48,688 bases of DNA from Chloroflexi bacterium 13_1_40CM_65_17 (GTDB taxonomy: Bacteria; Chloroflexota; Dormibacteria; Dormibacterales; Dormibacteraceae). The stretch spans positions 1 to 48,688 of the forward strand of contig MNES01000051.1 in NCBI GenBank assembly GCA_001917815.1. The letters run 5' to 3'. Of the stretch, positions 2,587-6,962 are shown piece by piece. A program made the position numbers and the translations under genes. Under the pieces are notes generated by a model that saw only the letters and a list, made by a program, of their open reading frames with translations, made no database searches and had not been told where the DNA came from. Within the stretch, counting starts at the first letter, position 1; every line of letters begins with the position of its first letter.

Positions 2587-3219
2587 GTGAGGCTGGTCGC
2601 TGCGTCATTCGGGTGGCCGTTTCGCGGCGCCTGGCCCTCCAGGTTCGCCATGGGCGTGCTGATGGTCCTCCTCCTTCCGATCTCATTCATCCCTCTGCTG
2701 GGCTATGCGATCGCCGCGACGAGGACCGCAGGGGAAGATCCGACTCACGGGCCGCCGCGGTGGAGGCTGTCGCGGCGTTTGATCGCCGACGGGTTCTGGA
2801 CAGCGCTCGTGCTGCTCGTTCTCTCGGCGCCGTTCATCCTGGCGTGGAATCCGCTCGCAGACGTGATGCCGCTACAACAGGTTTATGCGCACATCGGCGC
2901 GGCATTCCTTCTCGCGCTGCCGTGGGGGCTTCTCTTGTTGCTGCTGATGCCCCACGGGACGAGCCGGTTCGCAGCGACGGGCCGCCCGCTAGACCTGTTC
3001 GACTTTCCGGCGTCGCTTCGCGGAGTCCGCCGGGATTTTCCGGCCTGGAATGTTGCCGCCGCCGCGATGGTGACCGCGTGGGCCATCGGGGTGGCTTGCG
3101 TCGGTCTCCTCTGCGTCGGCTTCTTGCCGGGCATGTTCTACGCCATTCTTGTGAGCGCACATGCGTCCGCCACGCTCCGTCCGGCCGGCATCTCGGGTAC
3201 GACTCCATCCTCTGGGTGA
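2587..3219 (+). CDS. DUF4013-like multi-pass membrane protein
   Basis: This is a 210-aa integral membrane protein of unknown function. It has about four hydrophobic segments: residues 18-45, 70-90, 98-120 and 155-190. A short charged region near the first segment reads ATRTAGEDPTHGPPRW. The organisation (N-terminal WPFRGAWPSR, a helix pair, a cytosolic loop, a helix pair) resembles DUF4013 proteins, which are common as orphans in archaea and Terrabacteria. The GTG start lies 6 nt after a TAAGGT box. The C-terminus overlaps the proposed start of pxpB by 59 nt in another frame. Confidence 0.7.
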   Translation: MRLVAASFGWPFRGAWPSRFAMGVLMVLLLPISFIPLLGYAIAATRTAGEDPTHGPPRWRLSRRLIADGFWTALVLLVLSAPFILAWNPLADVMPLQQVYAHIGAAFLLALPWGLLLLLLMPHGTSRFAATGRPLDLFDFPASLRGVRRDFPAWNVAAAAMVTAWAIGVACVGLLCVGFLPGMFYAILVSAHASATLRPAGISGTTPSSG

Positions 3220-3826
3220 CACCGCTCTGCTCGCCGAGCTCGGCACCAGGCTCGATACCGCGCTGAATACGCGGGCGATCGCCCTCGCCACCGCCCTGAA
3301 AAAGCGTCGAGACGTGCGGCAGGCGGTCGCCGGTTACGCCGGCGTGACCGTCCATTTCGACCCCGACCAGACGACGCATGAAACACTGGGCGCCGCCATC
3401 AAGAGGTTGGCGGCGAAGCGTCCGCCGATGGCCGAGCCGGGCCGCCTGCACCGGATCCCAGTCGTGTACGCAGGACCGGACCTCGAGGAGGTCGCCGCCC
3501 GCCTGAACCTGACGAGGGAGACGATCGCGGAGCTGCATTCGAAACCGATCTATCGCGTGTTCCTGGTTGGCTTCGTGCCGGGCTGGGCCTACCTCGGACC
3601 GCTGCCCGAAGAGCTCGAGCTGCCGCGGCGGCAGGTGCCCCGCACGCAGGTGCCGGCCGGCTCGGTCGCGATCGCGGGAAGGCAGACCGGTATTTATCCG
3701 TTGCCGACGCCTGGCGGCTGGCACCTGATTGGGCGGACCTCGGTGAAGCTCTTCCTGCCCGACCGCGATCCGCCGTGCCTCTTTCGCGCTGGCGACCGGG
3801 TGAAATTCTTCGCCGCAAATCTTTGA
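3161..3826 (+). CDS. pxpB: 5-oxoprolinase subunit B (KipI family)
   Basis: This 221-aa protein belongs to the KipI/PxpB family. With PxpA and PxpC it forms the ATP-dependent 5-oxoprolinase that opens pyroglutamate to glutamate. Diagnostic stretches are HPLGDTALLAELG near the N-terminus, YAGVTVHFDP, the core GFVPGWAYLG, and VPAGSVAIAGRQTG followed by YPLPTPGGWHLIG. The ATG at 3161 is the only in-frame start before the conserved region, although it overlaps the previous gene by 59 nt. The stop overlaps the likely TTG start of pxpC, implying translational coupling. PxpA is encoded separately at 6282-6962 on the other strand. Confidence 0.93.
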   Translation: MRPPRSVRPASRVRLHPLGDTALLAELGTRLDTALNTRAIALATALKKRRDVRQAVAGYAGVTVHFDPDQTTHETLGAAIKRLAAKRPPMAEPGRLHRIPVVYAGPDLEEVAARLNLTRETIAELHSKPIYRVFLVGFVPGWAYLGPLPEELELPRRQVPRTQVPAGSVAIAGRQTGIYPLPTPGGWHLIGRTSVKLFLPDRDPPCLFRAGDRVKFFAANL

Positions 3827-4767
3827 GTACCGTGCTCCGGGTGCTCGAGCCCGGTCTCTTCACGACCGTCCAGGACCTCGGCCGGCCAAACGCCATCGCC
3901 TCCGGCGTGCCTCCCGGCGGCGCGATGGATCGCTTCGCGCATCGGGCCGCGAACCTGCTCGTCGGCAATTCGGAAGGGGATGCCACTCTCGAGTGCACGC
4001 TCACCGGCCCGCACCTGCTGGCCGAGCGTTCGTGCGTGGTCGCGATCGCGGGCGCGGAGTTCGAAATTCGGATCAACGGCCAGGTCGCGCCCACGTGGAC
4101 CGGCATATTCCTTGGCAAGGGCGACCACCTGGCGTTCGGCGCCCGCCGTTCGGGAGGGCGCGCGTACGTCGCGGTCGCCGGCGGGATCCAGGCCGACCGC
4201 TGGCTGGGATCAGCGTCCACCAATCTGATGGCCGCTCGCGGCGGCATGAACGGTCGCAACATGAAAGCTGGCGACCAGATTGGCGTGGCCCGCGAAGCGT
4301 CGCGGCCAGCGGTATCCGGCCACCACCTCCCGAAACGGCTGCACCCCGACTATGGCAACCACACGCTCGCCGCAGTTGTGGGCCCGCACCTGAAACGGCT
4401 GGATCCGGACAGCCGCGGACTGCTGTTCAAGGCTGCCTTCAAGGTCAGTCGGGAGGCCGACCGCATGGGCTACCGACTGGACGGCCCGAGGCTCGGGACC
4501 TCAGGCGACGAGCTGCTCTCTTTCGGGCTCACCGCTGGCGCGGTGCAGGTTCCTCATGGCGGCCAGGCGATCCTGCTGATGGCGGACCACCAGACTGCCG
4601 GCGGCTACCCGGTGGTGGCAACTGTCGTGAGCGCGTCGATGCCGGTGGCGGCACAACTGGTCCCCGGAGACGAGCTGCATTTCGCCGAGGTCACGCTCGA
4701 CCGAGCACACCAGATGCGCCTGTCGCTGGCAAACGCGCTCGACACGCTGCGCGAGCCCGCGCGTTGA
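3823..4767 (+). CDS. pxpC: 5-oxoprolinase subunit C (KipA/biotin-dependent carboxyltransferase-like)
   Basis: This PxpC/KipA-family subunit pairs with PxpB. The family start LRVLEPGLFTTVQDLGRP is followed by GVPPGGAMDRFAHRAAN and LECTLTGP. GRAYVAVAGGI lies mid-protein, and GGQAILLMADHQTAGGYPV near the C-terminus is typical. The frame is open from an ATG at 3775, but homology begins about residue 19. The TTG at 3823 overlaps the pxpB stop as TTGA and is preferred; a GTG at 3832 is the alternative. The product is about 314 aa, normal for the family. Both subunits act in the cytoplasm. Confidence 0.92.
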   Translation: MSTVLRVLEPGLFTTVQDLGRPNAIASGVPPGGAMDRFAHRAANLLVGNSEGDATLECTLTGPHLLAERSCVVAIAGAEFEIRINGQVAPTWTGIFLGKGDHLAFGARRSGGRAYVAVAGGIQADRWLGSASTNLMAARGGMNGRNMKAGDQIGVAREASRPAVSGHHLPKRLHPDYGNHTLAAVVGPHLKRLDPDSRGLLFKAAFKVSREADRMGYRLDGPRLGTSGDELLSFGLTAGAVQVPHGGQAILLMADHQTAGGYPVVATVVSASMPVAAQLVPGDELHFAEVTLDRAHQMRLSLANALDTLREPAR

Positions 4768-4771
4768 GCCG

Positions 4772-5254
4772 TCAGCCCTGGGCCGCTTTTCGCGCCTCCT
4801 CGATCACGGCGTCGTAGTCAGGCAGCGGCTGCTCACGCGAGCCCTGCCATGCATAGCGGATCGTCCCCGAGCCGTCGATCACGAAGACGGTGCGCCGCGC
4901 CATCCCCGAATAACCTGCCACGTCGTCACGCCGCACGCCGTAGTCGGTGACCATCTTGCGTTCGAAATCGCCTATGAGGTCATAGGGCAGCCCGCCCAGC
5001 TCCTTGGCGAACGCCTGGTGCGAGAACACGGAATCGACGCTGATGCCGTAGATGCCGATGCCATCCGCGGCGGCCGCCTCGTGCCTTGACCGAAACTCGG
5101 TCAGCTCGGTCCTTCAACCACCCGTGAAATCAAGCACATAGAAAAGGAATATGAGGGCCTTGTGCTTCGCCAGCGCTTCACCGAGTGTCAGCTCCTGTCC
5201 GCTTGTCGTCGGGAGCTTGAAATCCGGCGCCTTGTCCCCGACCTGGAGCACCAT
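4772..5254 (-). CDS. Redoxin/peroxiredoxin-family protein with a selenocysteine codon (UGA at 5116-5114)
   Basis: Read from the ATG at 5254, the frame gives VGDKAPDFKLP, LGEALAKHKALIF, then FYVLDFTGG, an in-frame TGA as codon 47, then RTELTEFRSRHE and the rest of an AhpC/TSA redoxin (GIYGISVDSVFSHQAF, MARRTVFVIDGSGTIRYAW). The total is 160 residues if the TGA is read through. The TGA aligns with the peroxidatic Cys of F-T-x-x-C-x-T-E in peroxiredoxins, keeping the active-site Thr and the following T-E. That is the expected place for selenocysteine. A 6-bp hairpin starts 10 nt after the codon. Known selenoprotein redoxins have this architecture. Automatic callers would report only the C-terminal 85 residues from 5029. 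No sel genes are in this window, so decoding is inferred. The start lies 6 nt after the stop of the upstream GNAT gene. Confidence 0.82.
5087..5103 (-). promoter_or_regulatory. Candidate bacterial SECIS hairpin in the redoxin mRNA
   Basis: In the sense strand TGACCGAGTTTCGGTCA forms a perfect 6-bp stem (TGACCG/CGGTCA) with loop AGUUU; an extra A-U pair could close it to GUU. The stem begins 10 nt and the loop 16 nt downstream of the UGA codon. A G lies within the first two loop bases. As I recall the bacterial SECIS pattern (apical loop roughly 16-37 nt from UGA, G near the loop start), this fits its lower limit. Confidence 0.55.
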
Positions 5255-5260
5255 AAGAGT

Positions 5261-6049
5261 CTATCCGCGCTCGAGAACGTACCAGCCGGTGCGGGTTACG
5301 CCGGTCACCTGGTAGCCCGCGTCGAATGCGGATGTCAGCGCCTTGCGCACGGCCATCCGCCACGCGCGCGCCAGCTGCGGATCGGAGCGCCGGAGGGCGA
5401 CGATGTCTTCGGGCACCTGACAGGTGACCACGCGCGCGGCTGACGACCCCGGCACTGGCTCGCCACCATCGCCTACCGAGAGCACAGTGTCGATTCGCCA
5501 GCGCTGCAGGTCCTCCGACGCCGGGTCGTGCGGCTTGCCTTCGGCCGCCTCCTTGACCTTCGGCGAGTCGAGGCGCCAGCTGATGAGAAGCCGGTCTGTC
5601 TCTTCACCCGCATTGATTCCGTCCCTCATCTCGCCGTAGAGATTGATCAGATAGCTGCTAGCTTCGGCGCCGAGCTTGTTGAGGTTGAAGTAAGCGTTGC
5701 GCCGCACGAGGGGATCAAAAGTCCATTCGATGACATTCACCCCGCGGTCGAGGCACCAGGTGCGCTGATGCTGCTTGAGGTCGAACCCGAGGCCGCGCGC
5801 CTGGCCACCGGCGACGACGCCGAGGATGTGCGAATGGAGGTGCAGGTGATCTGGCAAGCCGCCGAGCCAGCCGACCAGACCGCCTACAAGGCGCCCGTCC
5901 TGGTGCGCGCCGACGACGTAATTTCCAGAGTTCGCGAGGGCGGTGAGCACGTCGGAGCCGATGGGCGGCTCGCCCGGCCGCTCCCATACATCGGCGAAGA
6001 GCCGCTCCAGCGCCCTTAGGTCGTCAAGCTCCGTCAGCTCCGAGATCAC
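5261..6049 (-). CDS. Predicted GNAT-superfamily acetyltransferase (COG3375-like)
   Basis: This 262-aa cytoplasmic protein has a GNAT fold in its first half: ELDDLRALERLFADVW, then YVVGAHQDGRLVGGLVGW, then the acetyl-CoA loop region HSHILGVVAGGQARGLGFDLK (about residues 72-92) and IEWTFDPLVRRNAYFNLNKLG. The pattern, including the FDPL-x-x-x-NA-x-FNL-x-KLG motif and the YGEMRDGINAGEETDRLLISW segment, matches the COG3375 family of uncharacterised acetyltransferases. The substrate is unknown. The gene ends 6 nt before the selenoprotein start, so the two are probably co-transcribed. Confidence 0.8.
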   Translation of the reverse strand: MISELTELDDLRALERLFADVWERPGEPPIGSDVLTALANSGNYVVGAHQDGRLVGGLVGWLGGLPDHLHLHSHILGVVAGGQARGLGFDLKQHQRTWCLDRGVNVIEWTFDPLVRRNAYFNLNKLGAEASSYLINLYGEMRDGINAGEETDRLLISWRLDSPKVKEAAEGKPHDPASEDLQRWRIDTVLSVGDGGEPVPGSSAARVVTCQVPEDIVALRRSDPQLARAWRMAVRKALTSAFDAGYQVTGVTRTGWYVLERG

Positions 6050-6065
6050 ATTCGGACTCTAGCGG

Positions 6066-6281
6066 CTACGCGATCGCGAGCCGCCTGCCGGCAAAGAGCG
6101 AGGCGGCCGGCAGCGCGAGCGCGACGGCGGTGGCGGCGCCGAATGCGATGGCGATGCCGGCCGGCTCGAGCAGCAGCGAGACGGTGAGGAAAAACCCGGC
6201 GAACGCAAACAGTCCGAGCAGGAGGCCGCGCAGCACGCCGAACGCCGAGTCGGCGCCCTGGAGGGATTCCGCCTCCCCCAC
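6066..6281 (-). CDS. Small two-helix membrane protein
   Basis: This 71-aa protein starts at a GTG (6281-6279) immediately after the pxpA stop, with GAGG a few bases upstream inside pxpA. Two hydrophobic helices cover about residues 18-40 (VLRGLLLGLFAFAGFFLTV) and 42-64 (AGIAIAFGAATAVALALPA), leaving a short C-terminal tail with two arginines. It is the last gene of the moaC-moaB-pxpA operon. I do not recognise a family; position suggests a membrane partner or a small transporter-like accessory, but that is a guess. Confidence 0.55.
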   Translation of the reverse strand: MGEAESLQGADSAFGVLRGLLLGLFAFAGFFLTVSLLLEPAGIAIAFGAATAVALALPAASLFAGRRLAIA

Positions 6282-6962
6282 TTACTGCCTCGCGAGTGGG
6301 CCCGTCTCCACGCCCGCCTCACGAAGGGCGGCTCGAACCGCGGCGGCGACCGCAGCCGCGCCTTCGGAGTCACCGTGTATGCAGACGGTGTCGTATTGCC
6401 CCGAGCGCGCAAGGCGCACGGCTTGAGCGGCGGCGGTGGGCGCGTCGAGCACTGCTCCCGGCTGTGTCCGAGGGGCCAGGCTGCCGTCGAAAAGGAGGAG
6501 GCGATCCGCAAAGCCCTCCCGATACGCGGGCACACCCGCTCTTCTCGCAGCGGCCAGCAGCTCGAGGCCCGGCTGCCCGACCAGACCGACTCCGTGCGCC
6601 TTCGCCACCCGGGCCACGGCGTCCGCTGAAGCAGGGTCGGACTGGCAGCGGTGATAGAGCGCTCCGTGGGGCTTGACGTACGCGACAGGCACCACCGCGG
6701 CGAGGGCCGCGACCTGGAACGTCACCAAAGCCTCGATCTGTTCCGGTGAGACCTCGCGCTCCCGACGTCCAAACCCTTCCGGATCGTCGTACCCGGGATG
6801 CGCCCCGACTTCGACGCCGAGCTGGTGGCACCGCACCGCGGTCGCGATCGTGATCGATGCCGATCCCGCGTACACCCCGCAGGCGACGCTTGCGCTGTCG
6901 ATGTGGGCCATGATCATTTCGTCGGCTCCTGCGCCTTCGCCGAGGTCCGCGTTGAGGTTCAA
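6282..6962 (-). CDS. pxpA: 5-oxoprolinase subunit A (LamB/YcsF family)
   Basis: This 226-aa LamB/YcsF protein is the third subunit of 5-oxoprolinase, cleaving 5-oxoproline with PxpBC. Motifs are NLNADLGEG at the N-terminus (the usual Cys of LNCDLGE is Ala here), [44 protein letters not shown] (about residues 95-104) and CIHGDSEGA near the end. Length is slightly short for the family (about 245-255). Its ATG overlaps the moaB stop as ATGA, so it is translated from the moaC-moaB transcript and not with pxpBC, which lie about 2 kb away on the other strand. Confidence 0.93.

Follow-up and report, generated by a model that had tools for sequence, protein, structure and literature searches.

Peroxiredoxin (Prx) selenoproteins with a T/SxxU motif were catalogued in 2006 (PMC1794560), numbered 91 proteins from 78 organisms in a 2016 count (PMC5029168) and are treated as an established class in a 2026 review (PMC13188914), where the longer motif PxxxTxxU is described as highly conserved, not defining. 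For bacterial SECIS elements, published constraints are a stem of 4-16 bp, a UGA-to-loop distance of 16-37 nt and an MFE of at most -7.5 kcal/mol (PMC13188914), with a loop of the pattern N1-G-U-N-N2 (PMC13188914 Fig. 2A). No paper linking selenocysteine (Sec) with Dormibacter or the Dormibacterota was found within the limited literature searched.

Here, a redoxin gene with an in-frame TGA in a window of 48,688 nucleotides (the whole stretch of DNA that was analysed) was compared with its homologs, including those in 42 genomes of the bacterial family (Dormibacterota / Chloroflexota relatives). Judged from sequence, the locus very probably encodes a selenocysteine-containing peroxiredoxin, in which Sec would be inserted at residue 47 by way of SelB and a stem-loop, and which would reduce peroxides. 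This supports the initial annotation, which had read the gene as a selenoprotein redoxin and had rightly placed such proteins in a class already known.

Gene structure and genomic neighbourhood

The features of the locus, in window coordinates, are:

4772..5254, minus strand: predicted Prx selenoprotein gene (prx), AhpC/TSA family, 160 codons plus TGA stop
5254-5252 or 5251-5249, minus strand: prx start codon, ATG or GTG respectively
5117..5119, minus strand: GGU (Gly46), the codon that precedes the UGA, unchanged throughout the family
5114..5116, minus strand: UGA of the predicted Sec47, which takes the peroxidatic position in T-G-G-U, where helix 45-63 begins
5087..5103, minus strand: candidate SECIS upper stem-loop UGACCG-AGUUU-CGGUCA, separated from the UGA by 10 nt, with its loop at a distance of 16 nt
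5261..6049, minus strand: upstream gene, putative acetyltransferase, stop 6 nt before the prx start
6282..6962, minus strand: pxpA (LamB/YcsF, 5-oxoprolinase subunit A-like), conserved neighbour on the same strand as prx
3161-3826, plus strand: pxpB, convergent with prx, conserved neighbour
3775-4767, plus strand: pxpC-like, convergent with prx, conserved neighbour

With TGA translated as Sec, the minus strand from 5254 to 4772 gives 160 amino acids, with one in-frame UGA (residue 47) and a terminal TGA. The two halves, which the initial annotation had joined by readthrough of the TGA, lie in a single frame and form one AhpC/TSA protein; in a Pfam search, PF00578 (AhpC-TSA) matched residues 5-134 with E=1e-32. 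The true start may be the GTG at 5251 instead of the ATG at 5254, since several orthologs start one codon later. As had been expected of normal gene calling, the ORF listing of the stretch returned only a truncated C-terminal piece of 85 aa (5029..4772). Automatic annotation can report only a C-terminal fragment of prx.

Most of the family has the genes moaC-mog-pxpA-[putative acetyltransferase]-prx in this order and on a single strand, with pxpC and pxpB convergent; the names moaC and mog were assigned by eye from translations. The putative acetyltransferase was not found in more distant members, where pxpA adjoins prx. A COG3375 acetyltransferase had been reported beside prx: the adjacency was confirmed and holds in most of the family, but the identity as a GNAT enzyme was not borne out, as the protein had no Pfam or NCBIfam match. 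The adjacency adds no function by itself. In much of the family, the 5-oxoprolinase-like genes pxpB, pxpC and pxpA flank prx on both sides (3161-6962 in the window).

Predicted structure and active site

The AlphaFold2 model, with Sec modelled as Cys, showed a Prx fold (pLDDT 95, pTM 0.91). Its closest fold was Bcp4 (3hjp, TM 0.89), followed by other BCP/PrxQ and 2-Cys Prx structures, and residue 47 begins helix 45-63 in the model. The Prx active-site residues Thr44, Sec47 and Arg121 were invariant in the family. With an in-frame UGA at the column of the peroxidatic Cys, the window's protein carries the T/SxxU by which the class is defined. The full PxxxTxxU motif is absent, as each of the 37 distinct family sequences has Val where the motif has Pro, and peroxidase efficiency cannot be assumed from a protein with this replacement. 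The window's Prx has no Cys, and one Cys was found in 5 of the 37 family sequences. It therefore lacks an intramolecular resolving thiol and, from this absence of Cys, is probably a one-Sec enzyme that needs an external reductant. A Sec peroxiredoxin variant that lacks the motif Pro, and in most cases any Cys, is biochemically testable.

These departures bear on an alternative, in which the gene product has Sec and a Prx fold but is no classical peroxidase: its main role would be that of a thiol/selenol oxidoreductase, or its substrate would be one other than H2O2. The Val in place of Pro and the absence of a resolving Cys from most family sequences would fit it, as would the scores of the window's Prx, which fall far short of the curated cut-off for each named peroxiredoxin family in NCBIfam. 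Against it stand the invariant Thr44, Sec47 and Arg121 and the predicted fold, which is that of BCP/PrxQ enzymes, and on balance we regard it as unlikely.

Codon at the peroxidatic position across homologs

An ortholog of prx was found in 40 of the 42 family genomes, each ortholog with exactly one internal TGA; the two genomes in which prx was unmatched are 71% and 78% complete. A selenocysteine antioxidant enzyme would thus be carried by nearly all surveyed genomes of an uncultured soil lineage. Read by codon, all 57 orthologous family loci had TGA at the peroxidatic column (some loci are the same genomes in two collections, leaving 37 distinct coding sequences). TGA stood at this column also in more distant Chloroflexota and in Bacillaceae (L056, L059, L069, L099, L102, L171-L177). 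The Cys homologues that the initial annotation had suggested looking for at this column were present among distant homologs: Cys was found in Bacteroidota, Ignavibacteriota, Elusimicrobiota, Luteibacter and other homologs, with Runella, Pedobacter and PrxQ-type proteins among those carrying C exactly at the UGA column. This agrees with the placement of the TGA exactly at the peroxidatic Cys (FTGGU). Residues other than Sec or Cys were not seen at the column among the homologs read, so that no close homologue carried a sense codon for a third residue.

On a 90-row tree, 2 changes sufficed to explain the Sec label, whereas shuffled labels needed 24 on average. The 14 family sequences in this tree formed one supported clade, all Sec, with weakly supported branching at deeper levels; accordingly, no reversion from Sec to Cys was seen within the family among these 14 sequences.

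Before as well as after the UGA, differences relative to the window were mostly at third codon positions. For L025, the counts at first, second and third positions were 2/2/13 before the UGA and 10/3/46 after it. This bias after the UGA indicates that the downstream part is translated in the prx frame and is under protein-level selection. A pseudogene, or a sequencing or assembly error at the UGA, would account for the one stop codon that interrupts the frame; it was rejected as extremely improbable, since all 57 loci, from many assemblies, share this codon at this column and the divergence downstream has a third-position bias. The initial annotation had argued against a random nonsense mutation from the site-specific placement.

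Stem-loop downstream of the UGA

The hairpin that had been described 10 nt after the UGA, with 6 bp and the loop AGUUU, is present at 5103-5087. It lies within all of the published bacterial SECIS limits, with a stem of 6 bp, 16 nt from UGA to loop and about -11 to -12 kcal/mol, and the loop AGUUU fits N1-G-U-N-N2 with A-U as N1-N2. The proposed check by folding was thus passed, and both sequence and pairing are conserved. The fold energy of the single sequence gave z = -1.15, which alone is not significant, and was discarded as proof of a SECIS element; a stem of 6 bp was reached in 3.7% of synonymous-codon shuffles. As read from the alignments, the significance of the hairpin comes from its conservation and from compensatory change across orthologs.

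Across the 37 distinct family sequences, codons 48-57 had a mean relative synonymous entropy of 0.27, against 0.57 for the rest of the gene (P = 0.002, a value that is only indicative as the sequences are related). Among 54 conserved columns with at least 4 synonymous codons, the only invariant codons were Thr52 ACC, Arg55 CGG and Gly46 GGU, of which the first two make up the hairpin stem. Compared with GACCG/CGGUC in the window, the stem in distant orthologs was UUCCG/CGGAA (L170), GUCCC/GGGGC (L171), CUUUCCG/CGGAAAG (L172) and UUGUCCC/GGGACAA (L175), and the loop start AGUU was kept after the rebuilt stems of all four. These orthologs offer a small set of naturally varied SECIS elements in which pairs have changed in a compensatory way. 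In L167, and in L169, which is identical there, no more than 3 contiguous bp remain in the hairpin register, and a hairpin in this register was absent from some distant Sec homologs (L059, L069, L177 and a few others).

The codon directly before the UGA was GGU in 57/57 family loci, although GGU accounts for only about 13% of the other Gly codons of prx. In every non-family case read, the base before the UGA was U or C.

Selenocysteine machinery

The sel genes and tRNA-Sec, whose complete absence would have spoken against Sec, were searched for in the genome to which the window belongs. selA (496 bits, cut-off 268, 5e-149) and the adjoining selB (347 bits, cut-off 242, 9e-104) were found on contig C92, and selD (349 bits, cut-off 125, 3e-104) on contig C98. 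A first search of this genome, which is 84% complete, found no tRNA-Sec over the cut-off, because the assembly breaks off within the gene: contig C21 ends inside tRNA-Sec, so that all but the 3' end, the TCA anticodon included, is retained. In a sister genome, a tRNA-Sec with anticodon TCA lies downstream of a thioredoxin-like gene, and the homologous stretch here lies on C21. A complete tRNA-Sec over the cut-off was found in 32 of the 42 family genomes and in 18 of the 19 most complete. The Sec-decoding set (selA, selB, selD, tRNA-Sec) is therefore represented here, with tRNA-Sec truncated in this genome and complete in relatives. Reading of the UGA as another residue (e.g. Trp, genetic code 4) or leaky readthrough, which would also leave the frame open, has next to no probability given the alignment of the UGA column with the catalytic Cys and the presence of Sec machinery with tRNA-Sec, and code 4 was rejected in view of the TGA in which prx itself terminates.

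Further observations were made on these genes. selD (C98:42913-43824, minus strand; L018) is a selenoprotein gene too, with an in-frame UGA in GAGUACKLS; SelD is a known selenoprotein family (PMC1794560). Contig C80 (14215-14292, minus strand; L190) carries 78 nt that repeat the 3' part of tRNA-Sec, with 96% identity to the gene of the sister genome, and lack the 5' part. Elements that integrate into tRNA genes may leave such pieces behind; no integrase was recognised near it. In sister genome G037, contigs C111 and C213 also end shortly past a tRNA-Sec gene.

Proposed mechanism and comparison with known systems

For a Sec-containing peroxiredoxin, SelB with Sec-tRNA-Sec(UCA) would bind the stem-loop that starts 10 nt past the UGA. 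Given the machinery and the element seen in the sequence, Sec would be inserted at residue 47 with no termination. Sec47 would lie at the start of the helix with Thr44 and Arg121 as conserved catalytic partners, and its selenolate, by analogy with the family, would reduce peroxides and be converted to selenenic acid. As the protein has no Cys to act as an intramolecular resolving thiol, regeneration would have to be external, presumably by a thiol or a thioredoxin/glutaredoxin-type partner. We tentatively suggest, as a possibility short of even odds, a Chloroflexota/Dormibacterota clade of one-Sec Prx in which the catalytic Pro was lost, Cys was mostly dispensed with, a single selenol carries out all of the chemistry with an external reductant and Sec did not revert to Cys anywhere in a family of soil bacteria.

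Relatives also encode another, separate protein of Prx fold whose gene has an in-frame UGA, read within GDWUPYCNG (UxxC type; L183, L184, L185, L186). The Prx-like thiol:disulfide oxidoreductase selenoproteins (PMC13188914) share the PF00578 fold and an active-site Sec with the window's Prx, but their Sec lies in UxxC. With PrxU (NF040737, thioredoxin-dependent peroxiredoxin, NCBIfam), the AhpC/TSA domain is common to both (E=1.7e-14); membership was rejected at 54.1 bits against a cut-off of 270. The best sequence and fold matches were Cys Prx of the BCP/PrxQ type (Aeropyrum pernix 2cx3/4gqf, Sulfolobus Bcp4 3hjp), which have Cys where the window has Sec and of which 2cx3, like 2ywn, retains the motif Pro. 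Closest are the bacterial selenoprotein Prx (PMC1794560, PMC5029168, PMC13188914), which likewise have an AhpC/TSA domain, a peroxidatic Sec in TxxU, a SECIS element directly after the UGA and widespread Cys homologs; in contrast to them, the protein described here has Val for Pro in PxxxTxxU and no Cys. The window's Prx belongs to this known selenoprotein class, with small distinguishing features.
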